Of a stretch of 64,000 nt of DNA, positions 5,080-12,044 are shown one piece after another. The notes under the pieces were generated by a model. It was not told the DNA's origin. It was given only the letters and a program-made list of their open reading frames with translations, and did no database searches. Every line of letters starts with the position of its first letter. The first letter of the stretch is position 1. Source of the stretch: Rhodohalobacter sp. 614A (GTDB taxonomy: Bacteria > Bacteroidota > Rhodothermia > Balneolales > Balneolaceae); the NCBI RefSeq assembly GCF_021462415.1, contig NZ_JAKEDS010000001.1:1212273-1276272 (forward strand), written 5' to 3'. The position numbers and the translations under genes are program-made.

Positions 5080-6798
5080 TTAAAATGCTTCGACGGTCTC
5101 TCCACAGTTATGCATTTGATTTCCGTAATAGGGGTTTTGAATTCCCTCACTGTCGCTGATCCACAGACTTCCACCTCCATACATCGGGCAGAATTGTTTG
5201 TAGAGAGTTCCTTCATATCCAAATTCTTCTACGGCAGCAACCAGTTCTTCAGACACCTGTTTAAATGCGGCCCGAAGCTCCTCGATGTTGTTCGTCCGAA
5301 TATCTGTAAATGATCGAAGTTGAGTGTTTGCCTCATCGTAATCGTCATTTGCAAGAGCTTCTTTTGTTTCGAGATAAGCCGGCATTACAGATTCGAGGTC
5401 CTGTTGTGAATGAATATTTAAACTCTGTTGCTTCTCAGGTTGCTGGTTTGATTGCATATCCATTTGTTGATGTTGGGAATGATCCTCATTGCTGTTCTGA
5501 TCCATCTGTATACTGCCATGATCATGAGCCGATCGATTTGCACCTGTGCCGGGCTCGCGGTTCATCATGCTCAGTTTATCAGAGAGTTGAGCTGCACTGT
5601 CGATTTTAAAGGTTCCGTTTGTTACAACCTGTTCACCTTCCGACAAACCCGATTCAACTACATAGTAGTTTCCAGCCCGGTTTCCGAGCATTACTTCTTT
5701 TGCTTGAAAGGAAGGTGTTGAAGTATTTGGAATTTGTACATACACAATTGAACGTTTCCCCGTCCACATGATAGCCGATCGTGGGACCATTAAATGAAAT
5801 TCACCAGACACATCTGATTCAACCTCCGCCGTGGCCAACATTCCCGGTTTTAACTGGTTATTTGGATTTTGAACGCGTGCACGGATCGTGGCTGTTCGGG
5901 ATTGATTATCCAGAAATGGATCTACATATATCACCGTGGATTCAAATGAATGGCCGGGCAAGGCTTCAACTGCAAATTGTATTTGATCTCCTTCCTGAAT
6001 GGAAGAAATATTCGATTCAAATGCCTGGAAATCGACCCAAACCGTAGAGAGATCAACAATTCGATAAAGCATTCCTCCTTCCATGACATGATCTTCCCGG
6101 GAAATTGCTAATTCGGAAACGTATCCGCTGACCGGAGAGTAGAAGTCAAGCTCGTTCATGATTTCACCACTCTGCTCTATTTGATTAATCGTGCTTTCCG
6201 GAAATTCCCAAAGCATGAGTTTTCGTCGCGCAGCTTCATACAGGCGGGGATTTTGATTTTTATACTTTGCCGTTTCGAGCAATTCCTGTTGTGCCGCAAT
6301 CAGTTCAGGCGAATAAATCGAGGCCAGACGCTGTCCCTCTCTTACGTATGTGCCGGCATAATCCACATATAGATTCCGGATTCTTCCGGGGAAATGTGCC
6401 GTTACATTAGAAACATTATTCTGGTTTTCTGTGACTTTTCCCGGAAGTGTAAATGTACTGACAGGCTGATCTCTTATGACGGGTGTGGTCTGGATTTCTG
6501 CCAGTTTCATTGAGGCTTGCGTCATTGTCAGTGTATTAGGATCCGCTGCCGATTGTTCGGATTCATCCTCAGCGGGAATCAGCTCCATTCCGCAAATCGG
6601 ACAGTTTCCGGGCTCATTTTGGCGAACCTGCGGATGCATACTACATGTATATACAACATTTCCTTGCTCATCTGTATGAGCCTCTTCAATATGTTCATCC
6701 ATTGGCTGTTCTGTGTCAGTACCTCCAAAAAAGAGGTATCCGAGAAACAAACCGAGAACCAGTAATCCGGCGTAAAGAAGTATGTTTTTTGTATTCAT
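5080..6798 (-). CDS. cusB: CusB-like periplasmic adaptor with heavy-metal-binding and DUF3347 domains
   Basis: The 572-residue membrane-fusion protein of an RND metal pump links inner-membrane CusA to the outer-membrane channel. An N-terminal anchor helix (5-24) is followed by a heavy-metal-binding motif (Cys52, Met54, His55, then CPICGM at 66-71) and the adaptor core with its barrel-sandwich and beta-barrel strands. A His/Met/Gln-rich linker spans about 427-475. The C-terminal segment of about 95 residues resembles DUF3347, with FCPM at 536-539 and a late Cys565. The three potential metal-binding regions suggest delivery of copper or silver to the pump. It lies downstream of the channel gene and upstream of copB. 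Confidence 0.92.
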   Translation of the reverse strand: MNTKNILLYAGLLVLGLFLGYLFFGGTDTEQPMDEHIEEAHTDEQGNVVYTCSMHPQVRQNEPGNCPICGMELIPAEDESEQSAADPNTLTMTQASMKLAEIQTTPVIRDQPVSTFTLPGKVTENQNNVSNVTAHFPGRIRNLYVDYAGTYVREGQRLASIYSPELIAAQQELLETAKYKNQNPRLYEAARRKLMLWEFPESTINQIEQSGEIMNELDFYSPVSGYVSELAISREDHVMEGGMLYRIVDLSTVWVDFQAFESNISSIQEGDQIQFAVEALPGHSFESTVIYVDPFLDNQSRTATIRARVQNPNNQLKPGMLATAEVESDVSGEFHLMVPRSAIMWTGKRSIVYVQIPNTSTPSFQAKEVMLGNRAGNYYVVESGLSEGEQVVTNGTFKIDSAAQLSDKLSMMNREPGTGANRSAHDHGSIQMDQNSNEDHSQHQQMDMQSNQQPEKQQSLNIHSQQDLESVMPAYLETKEALANDDYDEANTQLRSFTDIRTNNIEELRAAFKQVSEELVAAVEEFGYEGTLYKQFCPMYGGGSLWISDSEGIQNPYYGNQMHNCGETVEAF

Positions 6799-6888: not shown

Positions 6889-8289
6889 TTAAATTTCTTT
6901 TGAATTGATATTGTGTTTTCCGGTCAAATAATCGATGTAGGCTACTGACTTATGCATATCTGCGAGGGCCTGAATGCGGTTCAGTTGATAGTCGAGCAGT
7001 TTTCGTTGCATGCGCAATATTTCTTCAAAATCAGAGCTATCGGTGGAGTAAGCCTGCATCATAATGGTCAAAGCCTGGTTGACCCGCTGAATTTGTGTTT
7101 GATCATACAACTCAAACCGTCGATCTGCATCGTAATAATCTCTTAACGAGGCGTCCAAATCAGTTTCAAGAGAATTTGTTTTCGCTGAGATCTGCATTTG
7201 CGCTGACTGAATATTTTGTTCTGCCTGTTGAACCTGCGCGTTATATTTATTTCTGAACAGGGGAATTCTAAAACTTGCACGTGCAATTAATGCGTCTTTT
7301 CCATTATCAGTCAGTCCGGCCATATCCGTTCGTTCACCTGTAAAGATGTAATCAGCTCCAATCCCGAAGGAGGGTTTTCCACTTTTGACTGCTAATTCCC
7401 TCATCTCTTTGGAGGATTCCTCTTGATATCGAAGTCTGGATAGTGCTGGATTTTCTCGTACTAATTGATTTCTCAAAGATTGAGAATCATCGAATAGAAG
7501 GTCGGCCTGTAACGTATCCGGTGCATGGATTTGAGTATTCTCCGGATGATTGAGCAGTTCTCTGATTTTCTGTTCCAGAACAGATCGGTTATCCCGAAGA
7601 AGAGCCAGTTGTGTTTTCAGATCCTCCTGCTCAATCTGGGCTCGCAACACATCTACCTGTGTAGCCTGATTGGTTTCATATCGCCGAAGGCTAATTTCAA
7701 CCAGCGAATTCAGGATTTCAAGATTTTCTTCCGCGATTTCGATACTTCTATCCAACTCATAAAGATCCAGGAATGCTTTCTCAGTCTGATAAAAAATTCG
7801 ATTCCTGTTTTCCCGGAATGTCTCGAAATAAGCTTTCGATTGGATGGAAGCTATTTCCCGTTTATCCCTCAAAGTTCCAAACCAGGGAAACATTTGGGTG
7901 AGAGAGATACGAGCCTGCTGTGGTCCGAGACGAGTTTCAATCGGACTAACGAAATACGCAAAGGCAATTTCCGGATCAGGCAAAGCCCCCATTTGACTCG
8001 GTTCTTCCAAACTGGCAAGATATTGATGAAAGGCCGAGCGTACCTCAGGATTATTCTCCGCAGCGATTTGTTGATAATCTTCGATGGATTGGCCAATTAG
8101 CGAGACAGGTATTGCCATGAAGAGAGTTAAAAGAACAAACCGCAAAGAATACGGTAAGTTTATTGATAAAAGAACCTTCAAGCGTCCGTGAGGTCCTTGA
8201 AGCGTTCTCTTGTGACGCTTGAAGGACTTGCACTCTGCTTCAGACGCTTCAAGGTCACTTTTAATTATTTGATATTCTTTCGTGTTCAT
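6889..8289 (-). CDS. cusC: TolC-family outer-membrane channel of the copper pump, CusC-like
   Basis: The 466-residue protein belongs to the outer-membrane efflux (TolC) family: a signal-like hydrophobic stretch (about 45-66), then two long coiled-coil halves (for example QTEKAFLDLYELDRS and the later QQAEQNIQSAQMQIS). It would form the channel through the outer membrane for CusA and CusB. The start at 8289 overlaps the cusA stop codon as ATGA, which supports translational coupling and this start. Residues about 12-41 are encoded by a palindromic repeat (8174-8256), so the protein carries a charged N-terminal extension ahead of the signal segment. An internal start past the repeat is possible, although I see no ATG in the right place before residue 58. 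Confidence 0.88.
   Translation of the reverse strand: MNTKEYQIIKSDLEASEAECKSFKRHKRTLQGPHGRLKVLLSINLPYSLRFVLLTLFMAIPVSLIGQSIEDYQQIAAENNPEVRSAFHQYLASLEEPSQMGALPDPEIAFAYFVSPIETRLGPQQARISLTQMFPWFGTLRDKREIASIQSKAYFETFRENRNRIFYQTEKAFLDLYELDRSIEIAEENLEILNSLVEISLRRYETNQATQVDVLRAQIEQEDLKTQLALLRDNRSVLEQKIRELLNHPENTQIHAPDTLQADLLFDDSQSLRNQLVRENPALSRLRYQEESSKEMRELAVKSGKPSFGIGADYIFTGERTDMAGLTDNGKDALIARASFRIPLFRNKYNAQVQQAEQNIQSAQMQISAKTNSLETDLDASLRDYYDADRRFELYDQTQIQRVNQALTIMMQAYSTDSSDFEEILRMQRKLLDYQLNRIQALADMHKSVAYIDYLTGKHNINSKEI
8174..8256. repeat. Nested palindromic repeat inside the 5' end of cusC
   Basis: The outer arms ACCTTCAAGCGTC (8174-8186) and GACGCTTCAAGGT (8243-8255) pair with one mismatch. The inner arms TCCTTGAAGCGT (8194-8205) and ACGCTTGAAGGA (8215-8226) also pair with one mismatch. 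The shared CTTCAAGCG word appears four times in alternating orientation. This is the structure of a REP/BIME-like element, yet it lies within the reading frame of the channel gene without breaking it. Confidence 0.75.
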
Positions 8290-11200
8290 TTCACACTCCG
8301 TTTTAGTTGAAATTCTTTCCAGATGAAGTAGAGTACAGGCACCACAAACAGGGTAATGATCTGCAGTAACATGCCGCCTACACTTGGTATCGCCATGGGC
8401 ACCATGATATCGGAACCACGTCCGGTGGATGTTAAAACCGGCAGCAGGGCGAGGATGGTTGTGGCGGTGGTCATAAGCGTCGGGCGGATTCTTCTTGAGC
8501 TCGCTTCAACAACTACTTTCCGTAACTCTTTTGTATTTGAAGGACGCTGTCTGTCATACAGTTGATCGAGATAAGTGGCCATTACCACACCGCCGTCTGC
8601 CGCAATTCCAAAGAGGGCGATGAATCCGACCCACACAGCCACACTTAGATTTACGGTTCCCATCTGAAAGACATCTCTCAGGTTTTGTCCGAATAATTCG
8701 AAGTTTAAAAACCATCCCTGGCTGTAAAGCCAAATCATCAAAAAACCGCCGGCCCAGGCTACAAAAATGCTGGTAAAAATCATGCCTGTTGTAGCAACAG
8801 ACCGGAATTGGAAGTACATAATCAAGAATATAACGACCAGGGCAATCGGTAAAATAATGCCGAGACGTTTCGCAGCCCGAACCTGATTTTCGTAATTCCC
8901 GGCAAACTCAAAACTGATTCCGGCCGGAACAGTGAGATCACCTGAATCGATTCGATCCTGGATAACAGTCCGCGCATTTTCTACAACTTCTACTTCAGCG
9001 AAGGAGTCCTGTTTATCAAAAATCACATAGCCAACCAGGAAGGTGTCTTCACTTTTGATGGCCTGAGGTCCCTGGCGGTAATCGATCTTAGCAAGTTGTC
9101 CCAATGGGATTTGCGTGCCGGTTTTTGTTGGAACGAGAAGTTCAGAAATCGATTCTGGATCGCCTCTCAACTCGCGGGCAAACCGTACACGGATGGGATA
9201 TCGCTCGCGTCCTTCAACAGAAGTGGAGACGGGCATTCCACCAATTCCGGCTGTTACAAAATGCTGTACATCCTGCATGGAGAGTCCGTACCGTGCCAGT
9301 TCATTTCGGTTCCAGTTTATTTCGAGATAAGGTTTTCCGACAATGCGCTCTGCAAACACAGAAGAAGCATTCACTCCCGGAACCTGCCGAAGGACTTCTT
9401 CCAGTTGAAGTCCGAAGGATTCAATCGTTTGTAGATTATCACCTTTCACTTTTACACCCATAGGTGCGCGCATTCCGGATTGAAGCATCACCAGCCGCGT
9501 TTGAATGGGTTGAAGTTTTGGCGCAGAAGTAGTCCCCGGAATTCGGGAGGCTTCAACAATTTCATTCCAGATATCGTCGGGTGACTGAATATCATCACGC
9601 CATTGGCGATAGTATTCTCCGCCGGAATCCGGAATTAATTCTCCATTTTCATCGCGGACAAATTCATCATTGTCATCCACCCGATAGCGAATTCGCCGGC
9701 CGTTTTCGTTTGTTTTATATTCTGATGTATACAAGATTACATTTTCAAACATCGAGATGGGAGCGGGGTCGAGAGCAGAGTTCGTGCGTCCCATTTTGCC
9801 CACCACAGTTTCCACTTCTGGAATGGAAGCGACTGACATATCAATTTTTTGCATGACATCCATGGCTTCTTCAACCCCGGCATGAGGCATGGTTGTGGGC
9901 ATCAGCAGGAAAGCTCCTTCATCCAAAGCGGGCATAAATTCTTCGCCCAAACCCGGGAATGTATTTGTTGCAGAGGACCAGAGGGAGGTCGTTCGAATGT
10001 TCACGCCAACCGTATCAAATCCGGTTGCTACAAATCCAAACACGGAGGCAAATCCCAGCCAGATCATCATCCCCAAAACAACAAACGTTGTTGGGATGGC
10101 AAGAAAAGCTTTTTTATGATCCAGGCACCAGATAATCAGTTTTTGATAATAGGTGATGATGAGCCAGAAACTGAAGAGAATGGTACCAATTAAGAATATG
10201 ATAAAAATCATATTTCCGGCAAAAGAAACAGATGGGCCAAATGGAAGCCAGTATTCAGTTAAAAGCCAGGTGACGACCACTACTGCAAGAATGTTATTCA
10301 ACAGTGGAACTCTATTCTGATAATTCTCATCTAAAAAGAGAGAAGCTCCGTTGATCAAACCAAAACCTAAAATCAGAAATCCAGCCCAGCCCGAAAGGGT
10401 AAGCATCAAAAGAAATCCACCCGCTACAAGCAATCCATTCCAGCCTATTTTGATTTTTCGGCTGTTAATTTTAAACCCAAAAAACCAGTGGGCAAAAGGA
10501 GGAATGAGGGTAATTGCAATGATGATGGATGAGATCAGGGCAAATGTTTTGGTATAGGCCAGCGGTTTGAAAAGTTTTCCCTCGGCGGCGATCATGGTAA
10601 AGACCGGCAGAAAACTGACAATCGTAGTGGTTACGGCTGTAATCACAGCAGACGCAACTTCAACTGTGGCGTTGTAAATCACTTCGAGGAGTGATTCATC
10701 CTCATTCATATCCTCCATATGGCGGAGCATATTTTCAGACAGAATTACACCCATATCCACAATGGTACCGATGGCAATCGCAATTCCGGAAAGTGCCACA
10801 ATATTGGCATCCACTCCGAAATATTTCATGCCGATAAAGCACATCAAAACCGCGAGTGGAAGCATGGTGGAGATCAAAATGGAAGTCCGAAGATTCAGAA
10901 CCATGATGACAATCACGATAATAGTAATCAAGATTTCGAGAGTGAGGGCTTCCTCCAGGGTTCCGAGCGTTTCGCCAATCAGTTCAGACCGGTCGTAAAA
11001 AGGAACAATGGTTACTTTTGAGGTGGTTCCGTCGGACAACGTCTTGGATGGAAGGCCGGATGAAATTTCATCAATTTTGTTTTTTACATTGTCAATTACC
11101 TGCTGGGGATTGGCATTTTGGCGTGCAACTACCACGCCACCAACAGCTTCAGCTCCCGCTTTATCCAGAGCACCACGTCGTTGTGCGGGGCCCATCGTGA

Positions 11201-12044
11201 CGAAAGCCACATCCTGGATTCGAATGGGCGTGTTATCCACCACTTTTACAACGGCCGATTCCAGGTCGTCGATATTTTTGATATAACCCAGTCCGCGGAC
11301 GAGGTATTCGGCGTTGTTCAACTCAAGCGTTCGGGCACCTGTTTCCACATTACTTTTGCGAACGGCTTCAAAAACGTCTGCAAGAGTGACGTTATAAACC
11401 TTCATTTTATTGGGATCCACATCCACCTGGTATTCGCGAACGAAACCGCCAATGGATGAGACCTCTGCCACTCCCTGTGCACCAGAAAGTCCATATCCCA
11501 CATAAAAATCCTGGATGGATCGGAGTTCCTGAGGATCCCAGCCGCCGGTTGGATTTCCGTTTTCGTCACGGCCTTCAAGCGTGTACCAATACACCTGACC
11601 GAGAGCAGTAGCATCAGGTCCCAATGCCGGTTGAACATTGCCAGGAAGTGTGCCTGCGGGAAGTGCATTTATTTTTTCGAGGATGCGTGAGCGGCTCCAG
11701 TAAAATTCCACATCCTCTTCAAAAATCACATAGATGCTGGAGAGCCCTGTCATAGATGTACTTCGAACCGTTCGAACGCCGGGCACGGTTAAAAGTTGAG
11801 TTGTAAGCGGATACGTAATTTGATCTTCCACATCCTGCGGTGATTGTCCCGGCCATTCGGTATAAACAATTTGTTGGTTTTCGCCGAGGTTTGGAATGGC
11901 ATCCACCGGAACCGGATCGCGCGGGATGGAATTGAGATTCCAGTCAAATGGAGCTGTGGCAATTCCCCATCCGGTTAGTACCAGCAAAAGCAGTACAGCC
12001 ACAAGTTTATTTTCAAGAAAAAAACGAATGATTGAATTCGTCAT
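8286..12044 (-). CDS. cusA: CusA/CzcA family heavy-metal RND efflux pump
   Basis: This is the inner-membrane, proton-driven pump of the tripartite copper/silver exporter. It has the RND layout: a first helix (8-26), a large periplasmic domain, a transmembrane block, a second periplasmic domain and final helices with GIAADGGVVMATYLDQL and PTLMTTATTILALLP. At 1252 residues it is about 200 longer than the 1047-residue E. coli CusA. Two insertions account for this: a hydrophobic stretch around residues 530-650 with several extra helices between the two halves, and an acidic loop near 775-815. Met residues in MLQSGMRAPMGVKV fit the Met-based copper relay. It is probably the first pump gene of the operon and is coupled to cusC by a 4-base overlap. 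Confidence 0.93.
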   Translation of the reverse strand: MTNSIIRFFLENKLVAVLLLLVLTGWGIATAPFDWNLNSIPRDPVPVDAIPNLGENQQIVYTEWPGQSPQDVEDQITYPLTTQLLTVPGVRTVRSTSMTGLSSIYVIFEEDVEFYWSRSRILEKINALPAGTLPGNVQPALGPDATALGQVYWYTLEGRDENGNPTGGWDPQELRSIQDFYVGYGLSGAQGVAEVSSIGGFVREYQVDVDPNKMKVYNVTLADVFEAVRKSNVETGARTLELNNAEYLVRGLGYIKNIDDLESAVVKVVDNTPIRIQDVAFVTMGPAQRRGALDKAGAEAVGGVVVARQNANPQQVIDNVKNKIDEISSGLPSKTLSDGTTSKVTIVPFYDRSELIGETLGTLEEALTLEILITIIVIVIMVLNLRTSILISTMLPLAVLMCFIGMKYFGVDANIVALSGIAIAIGTIVDMGVILSENMLRHMEDMNEDESLLEVIYNATVEVASAVITAVTTTIVSFLPVFTMIAAEGKLFKPLAYTKTFALISSIIIAITLIPPFAHWFFGFKINSRKIKIGWNGLLVAGGFLLMLTLSGWAGFLILGFGLINGASLFLDENYQNRVPLLNNILAVVVVTWLLTEYWLPFGPSVSFAGNMIFIIFLIGTILFSFWLIITYYQKLIIWCLDHKKAFLAIPTTFVVLGMMIWLGFASVFGFVATGFDTVGVNIRTTSLWSSATNTFPGLGEEFMPALDEGAFLLMPTTMPHAGVEEAMDVMQKIDMSVASIPEVETVVGKMGRTNSALDPAPISMFENVILYTSEYKTNENGRRIRYRVDDNDEFVRDENGELIPDSGGEYYRQWRDDIQSPDDIWNEIVEASRIPGTTSAPKLQPIQTRLVMLQSGMRAPMGVKVKGDNLQTIESFGLQLEEVLRQVPGVNASSVFAERIVGKPYLEINWNRNELARYGLSMQDVQHFVTAGIGGMPVSTSVEGRERYPIRVRFARELRGDPESISELLVPTKTGTQIPLGQLAKIDYRQGPQAIKSEDTFLVGYVIFDKQDSFAEVEVVENARTVIQDRIDSGDLTVPAGISFEFAGNYENQVRAAKRLGIILPIALVVIFLIMYFQFRSVATTGMIFTSIFVAWAGGFLMIWLYSQGWFLNFELFGQNLRDVFQMGTVNLSVAVWVGFIALFGIAADGGVVMATYLDQLYDRQRPSNTKELRKVVVEASSRRIRPTLMTTATTILALLPVLTSTGRGSDIMVPMAIPSVGGMLLQIITLFVVPVLYFIWKEFQLKRSVK

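Follow-up and report, generated by a model that had tools for sequence, protein, structure and literature searches.

A dispersed REP-like doublet, probably read in frame, in the export-signal leader of a cusC-like gene of Rhodohalobacter

In the window, the 64,000-nucleotide stretch of Rhodohalobacter sp. 614A analyzed here, a cusC-like gene carries a palindromic element between its start codon and its export signal. Our preferred reading, to which we assign a probability of about 0.8, is that the n-region of the CusC signal peptide received one copy of a RAYT-type REP doublet, which is translated from the coupled start, with the mature channel unchanged and the leader tolerant of the addition. 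This reading is based on sequence comparisons, as are the Cus gene names, which were given by resemblance. The features of the locus, in window coordinates, are:

5080..6798, minus strand: cusB-like adaptor gene, downstream of cusC (Pfam HlyD_D23, E 3.2e-66; heavy metal binding domain HMBD, E 7.2e-14)
6889..8289, minus strand: cusC-like outer-membrane efflux gene, 466 aa (Pfam OEP PF02321, E 2e-41)
8089..8154, minus strand: signal-peptide core, 22 codons before residue 68, PYSLRFVLLTLFMAIPVSLIGQ (from the translation; signal peptide assigned by eye)
8166..8264, minus strand: whole REP doublet with the CCTTSAAGCGT words, codons 9-42 of cusC (covariance model)
8171..8208, minus strand: hairpin 2, AGAACGCTTCAAGG ... 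CGCTTGAAGGTTCT (consensus structure; limits by eye)
8212..8258, minus strand: hairpin 1, the first in the cusC reading direction, GTGACCTTGAAG ... CTTCAAGCGTCAC (consensus structure; limits by eye)
8175-8186: word 1, CCTTCAAGCGTC
8195-8205: word 2, CCTTGAAGCGT
8214-8225: word 3, GACGCTTGAAGG
8243-8254: word 4, GACGCTTCAAGG
8286..8289, minus strand: ATGA in which the cusA stop overlaps the cusC start
8286..12044, minus strand: cusA-like RND pump gene, upstream of cusC (Pfam ACR_tran, E 1.9e-172)

The palindrome consists of four CCTTSAAGCGT-type words arranged as nested inverted repeats inside the cusC-like frame (8175-8254), as the first-pass annotation had described, and it lies, as also stated there, between the signal segment and a start codon at 8289 within the ATGA that overlaps the cusA stop. 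The residues given there (about 12-41) were nearly right for the span claimed, which covers codons 12-39; the whole element, as delimited by the covariance model, takes in codons 9-42. With at most one mismatch, CCTTSAAGCGTC occurs five times in the window, four of them within the palindrome (0.31 expected; five reached by 1 of 100 shuffles), and CCTTCAAGCGTC is found exactly five times in the 4.69 Mb genome, twice inside the cusC element, with no occurrence of the reversed control. None of 200 shuffles of the element strand folded as well (z -5.0). An alignment of copies reveals a common plan of hairpin 1, a variable joint and hairpin 2, and the consensus of 15 chosen copies consists of two side-by-side hairpins with CTTGAAG/CTTCAAG stems and a one-base bulge; the window copy alone prefers a nested fold. 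The short imperfect palindrome is conserved as a hairpin: for 7 of the 24 consensus pairs, one or more of these 15 copies have both bases changed with the pairing retained, and the covariation term is small (-0.5 of -16.85 kcal/mol). No Rfam family matched at gathering score in positions 7800-8600. The best covariance-model match in the own genome is the cusC copy (G000:C1:1220438-1220536, minus strand, equivalent to window 8166-8264), and this stretch is probably one copy of a dispersed RAYT-type REP doublet, formed by two imperfect hairpins and about 95-120 bp long.

A search for further copies, proposed together with the suggestion of a REP-like dispersed repeat, was successful both in the genome and in the genus. 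A full-length copy (L002) lies between two ORFs at C2:841220-841331 of the own genome, with partial or rearranged copies at C1:443310 and C1:273518; the profile search did not bear out a 28-base match at C3:510474. Family matches at E<=0.01 were obtained in 13 of the 28 genomes of the genus, own genome included, with 33 match rows in G024, 29 in G012, 18 in G005, 12 in G015 and 4 in the own genome. The covariance model extended the family to 25 of 58 relatives (own genome included), 22 from the same genus and three from outside it (G030, G051 and G053); the own genome has few copies, with nine rows over both strands. Several full-length copies of G024 are found at contig ends (L144, L152, L168 and L192), as if the repeat had broken the assembly, so the copy number in this genome is probably underestimated. 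Tandem copies and copies at contig ends in G024 also raised the possibility of an integron attC site; it was dropped after inspection by eye, as the outer GTT/AAC motifs have the wrong orientation and the array read adjoins a RAYT-like gene.

Copy location was scanned at E<=1e-3 in 67 genus loci holding 78 non-overlapping copies from 11 genomes, leaving out L140 and the weaker own-genome loci L006-L012, together with L001, L013-L017, L175, L182, L183 and L195, which repeated others. The family is dispersed, present in many copies and mainly intergenic: only 7 of the 78 copies overlap, by at least half, an ORF of 150 codons or more (ORFs called without a gene finder), namely the one in cusC, where it spans codons 8-46 of 466, and a further six located at ORF ends: L167, L136, L146, L153, L156 (with an apparently spurious ORF) and the first copy of the L188 array. 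The view that REP-like elements are almost always intergenic is therefore broadly right for this family, although intragenic REPs, some at N-termini, have been published (Di Nocera et al. 2013, PMC3733652). The 48 full-length copies provide 288 frames, of which 34 contain no stop. In L167 (G005:C10:386000-389000, 428-1537), a copy extends an asparaginase-like ORF in frame by about 40 residues at its C-terminus; the own genome has its L002 copy at this site too, past the ORF end.

The family is most likely mobilized by a RAYT of its own, since copies bracket RAYT-like genes in G024, G005 and G015 and occur at 8 of 30 loci found with such a gene against 0 of 30 PF01797 loci, as detailed here. 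In G024, a gene interrupted by an internal stop (L188) lies between a five-copy array and a single additional copy; its two pieces matched the NCBIfam model for REP-associated tyrosine transposases at 0.009 and 1.3e-5; one piece of this broken gene scored better with an unrelated Pfam family than with Y1_Tnp. A search with the second piece retrieved relatives in 27 of 58 genomes, and the element was detected (nhmmer E<=1e-3) in 8 of the 30 loci kept (L226-L232 and L236), or in 7 of 29 without the locus of the query itself. Matches to PF01797 are present in 25 of the 28 genus genomes, and none of the 30 loci kept for them carries the element at nhmmer E<=0.1; generic Y1_Tnp genes were thus rejected as the mobilizer. 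Stop-free genes beside copies were compared with NF047646 (REP_Tyr_transpos), giving E values of 2e-11 in G005, 4.4e-11 in G012 and 4.2e-12 in G015. NF047646 was the best NCBIfam match for all three, but at 43-46 bits against a cut-off of 80, and Pfam Y1_Tnp matched two of them at 0.0033 and 0.0077, below its cut-off, and the third not at all. Putative catalytic motifs were seen by eye in the RAYT-like genes, which may be of the Y1/HUH type. In G005 and G015, the RAYT-like gene has copies on either side. Among the own-genome loci read, none has an intact RAYT next to the exact cusC-element family; a broken RAYT-like gene (L267; G000:C1:759000-761800, 998-1911) has on both sides a sister repeat of similar layout, in which CTGACAG/CTGTCAG replaces CTTCAAG/CTTGAAG.

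The alignment of orthologs, suggested as a way to find genes without the extension, showed that none of the four words is present in the leaders of the two closest orthologs examined, those of G015 and G005. The doublet was therefore probably inserted after the split from these two relatives, the alternative being its loss in both. A conserved extension shared by many genera, with no repeat elsewhere in the genome, does not describe this case: the repeat recurs in this genome and in the genus, and neither of the two closest examined orthologs has the element. In the close loci, the frame is open up to the cusA-coupled start in 24 of 24; as the start search needs an open frame, a stop in the leader would have been recorded as a locus lacking a start, and no such locus occurred. 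The ATGA overlap is present in 16 of the 19 loci read in more detail, including that of the window. Fourteen leaders were taken from the 24, leaving out near copies (L048-L050, L051-L053, L055, L057 and L024) and also L063, and two of the 14, L056 and L023, with leaders of 2-3 codons, were not counted. The remaining 12, one of them from a MAG titled Rhodothermia bacterium, comprise 504 codons with no stop in the cusC frame and with 32 and 34 stops in the other two frames; the product of the shuffle probabilities is about 10^-11.4, a value that overstates the case because some of the 12 loci share ancestry and are not fully independent. More distant cusC-like loci (L025-L047) were kept outside the leader comparison. 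Another 63 loci (L065-L127, for the most part titled Bacteroidota) were compared. In 53 of them, a start that coincides with the cusA stop or lies close to it is followed by a signal peptide of 19-26 codons; the other ten have either longer leaders (L066, L067, L085 and L086) or no coupled start (6 loci). The coupled cusC start thus looks ancestral and in use, with a leader that grew in Balneolaceae, because all 24 close loci are open to this start and 53 of the 63 loci from outside the family have a plain signal peptide there. The leaders differ in sequence and length between lineages, and the only shared feature found is the open frame.

Of the six frames of the cusC copy, a single one is open, and it is the frame used by cusC; ribosomes that begin at the ATGA-coupled start would therefore pass through the element, as the comparison favors. 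The element would add about 34 residues to a part of the precursor expected to be removed on export, and the mature channel would therefore remain unchanged. The dN/dS of mature cusC was 0.049 against G015 and 0.063 against G005, with 0.051 between G015 and G005, neither of which carries the element of the window; for the end of cusA it was 0.043 and 0.037, respectively, and for the 22-codon signal core 0.56. Mature cusC thus appears to be under purifying selection (dN/dS about 0.05), which speaks for a working gene, although this ratio says little about the time since insertion, because synonymous sites are near saturation and most of the divergence may predate the insertion. The open frame and the conserved gene would be compatible with an RPE-like palindrome that is read in frame in a functional gene. 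The first-pass annotation had offered a working signal peptide with a long n-region or re-initiation further in, with possibly lower pump expression; the open frame in the 24 close orthologs and the conserved mature protein favor the former. The leader would tolerate added sequence as long as the frame stays open.

The main competitor is that the element is not translated, CusC starting further in (TTG codon 37 or 49, or another site), in which case an intercistronic hairpin may tune cusC expression. In-frame starts are available at TTG codons 37 and 49 and at ATG codon 58, and in PMC3733652 most REPs at the 5' ends of ORFs of P. putida, C. koseri and S. maltophilia were judged probably non-coding, with the warning that REPs in such places are often extragenic, translation beginning further in. 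However, the absence of stops in the 504 leader codons of 12 loci (with 32 and 34 out of frame), the ATGA coupling in 16 of 19 loci, and the plain signal peptide that follows a start close to or at the cusA stop in 53 of the 63 loci outside Balneolaceae make an untranslated element unlikely. The caution in the REP literature about untranslated palindromes at ORF starts thereby receives a comparative answer, the leader frame being open in all close orthologs read. Less probable still is that the insert has been put to use, its mRNA hairpins or the charged n-region regulating cusC-cusA coupling, for example through ribosome slowing or delayed targeting. The strong fold directly behind a translationally coupled start would fit such a role, and dispersed repeats occupy the same place in two other lineages; however, the leaders vary in sequence and length among lineages, the element is absent from G015 and G005, and the open frame alone is shared, so that we regard regulation as very unlikely. 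That the palindrome arose by chance or grew locally, unrelated to a mobile family, is hardly credible given the full-length homologous copy L002 and the matches in 13 of 28 genus genomes. We thus retain the inserted and translated doublet as the best explanation.

The family resembles the RAYT-associated REPs, BIMEs and REPINs (PMC2817692) in its short, paired imperfect palindromes, which are dispersed, mostly outside long ORFs, and found by RAYT-like genes. It differs from them in that the copy studied here is inside a gene and in that the element consensus lacks a GTAG head and has stems of CTTGAAG/CTTCAAG with a one-base bulge; the unpaired end of GTAG-tagged REPs is absent. The Rickettsia palindromic elements (Ogata et al. 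2000, 2002, as cited in PMC3733652 and PMC2996958) are also in-frame palindromes in seemingly functional genes, and Rickettsia proteins with an N-terminal RPE-1 are expressed (PMC3733652). However, their sequence is different, they sit in many genes, whereas 7 of 78 copies of our family overlap an ORF of at least 150 codons, and the family departs from the CGTC layout of RPE-4 and RPE-6, which are CGTC-tagged according to PMC3733652. CGTC-tagged REPs are described there by an unpaired CGTC or TGTC at the end of an 8-9 bp stem with AT pairs at its opening and a loop of 4-5, and no transposase gene with CGTC units beside it was found in that study. By eye, the G005 leader insert resembles these REPs, whereas the element of the window does not follow the published stem and tag layout (CGTC occurs beside the stem words, with no unpaired tag before an AT-opening stem in the consensus) and RAYT-like genes adjoin its family. 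A literature search on Balneola with repetitive and palindromic as terms found nothing. REPs inside genes have been described before. Within the literature searched, two things appear to be new: this family together with its RAYT-like partner, and the repeated use of a single signal leader.

As for the other Balneolaceae leaders, that of G005 yielded at least 44 match rows within G005, one of them itself (40 of 223 candidates scored); by eye, it looks like a TGTC-tagged REP pair, TGTCATTCTGAA-CTCGA-TTCAGAAT and an inverted partner. Four parts of the leader of Balneola EhC07 recur elsewhere in its genome. The G015 leader gave a single further match in its own genome, which was weak, as were those in G000 and G005. 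The Fodinibius sediminis leader had no second match at E<=0.01 in its own and three other genomes, and the Gracilimonas-type leader matched only itself, its ortholog and, at 71%, a second cusC-like locus of G030. Genome searches thus document dispersed repeats in the cusC leader for three lineages, including that of the window, a recurrence that the first-pass annotation had not anticipated; for others, there is at most a suspicion. Unrelated repeats may have accumulated in sister-lineage leaders because the leader tolerates in-frame additions. We lean slightly towards the view that unrelated mobile palindromes of Balneolaceae have landed repeatedly between the coupled start of cusC and its signal core, where they are kept in frame and join the precursor; export signals would then be partly selfish DNA, with Sec tolerating n-regions of up to about 80 residues. 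Recurrent in-frame invasion of one export-signal leader would be unusual, and signal-peptide n-regions would be places where mobile palindromes can become protein with the mature product untouched.

Words like LTSIFYLLTSN occur in the signal cores of L066, L067 and L085, outside Balneolaceae, and may also be repeat-derived. For the L061 leader, a search of four genomes gave no second match. Palindromic AAGTCCCCTCTTGAGAGGGG-like DNA lies directly before the signal core in the leaders L054, L059, L061 and L062; this part is dispersed in EhC07, with three matches in the genome of the window, and reads in the same frame as KSP(L/F)E, with RG a few residues on.
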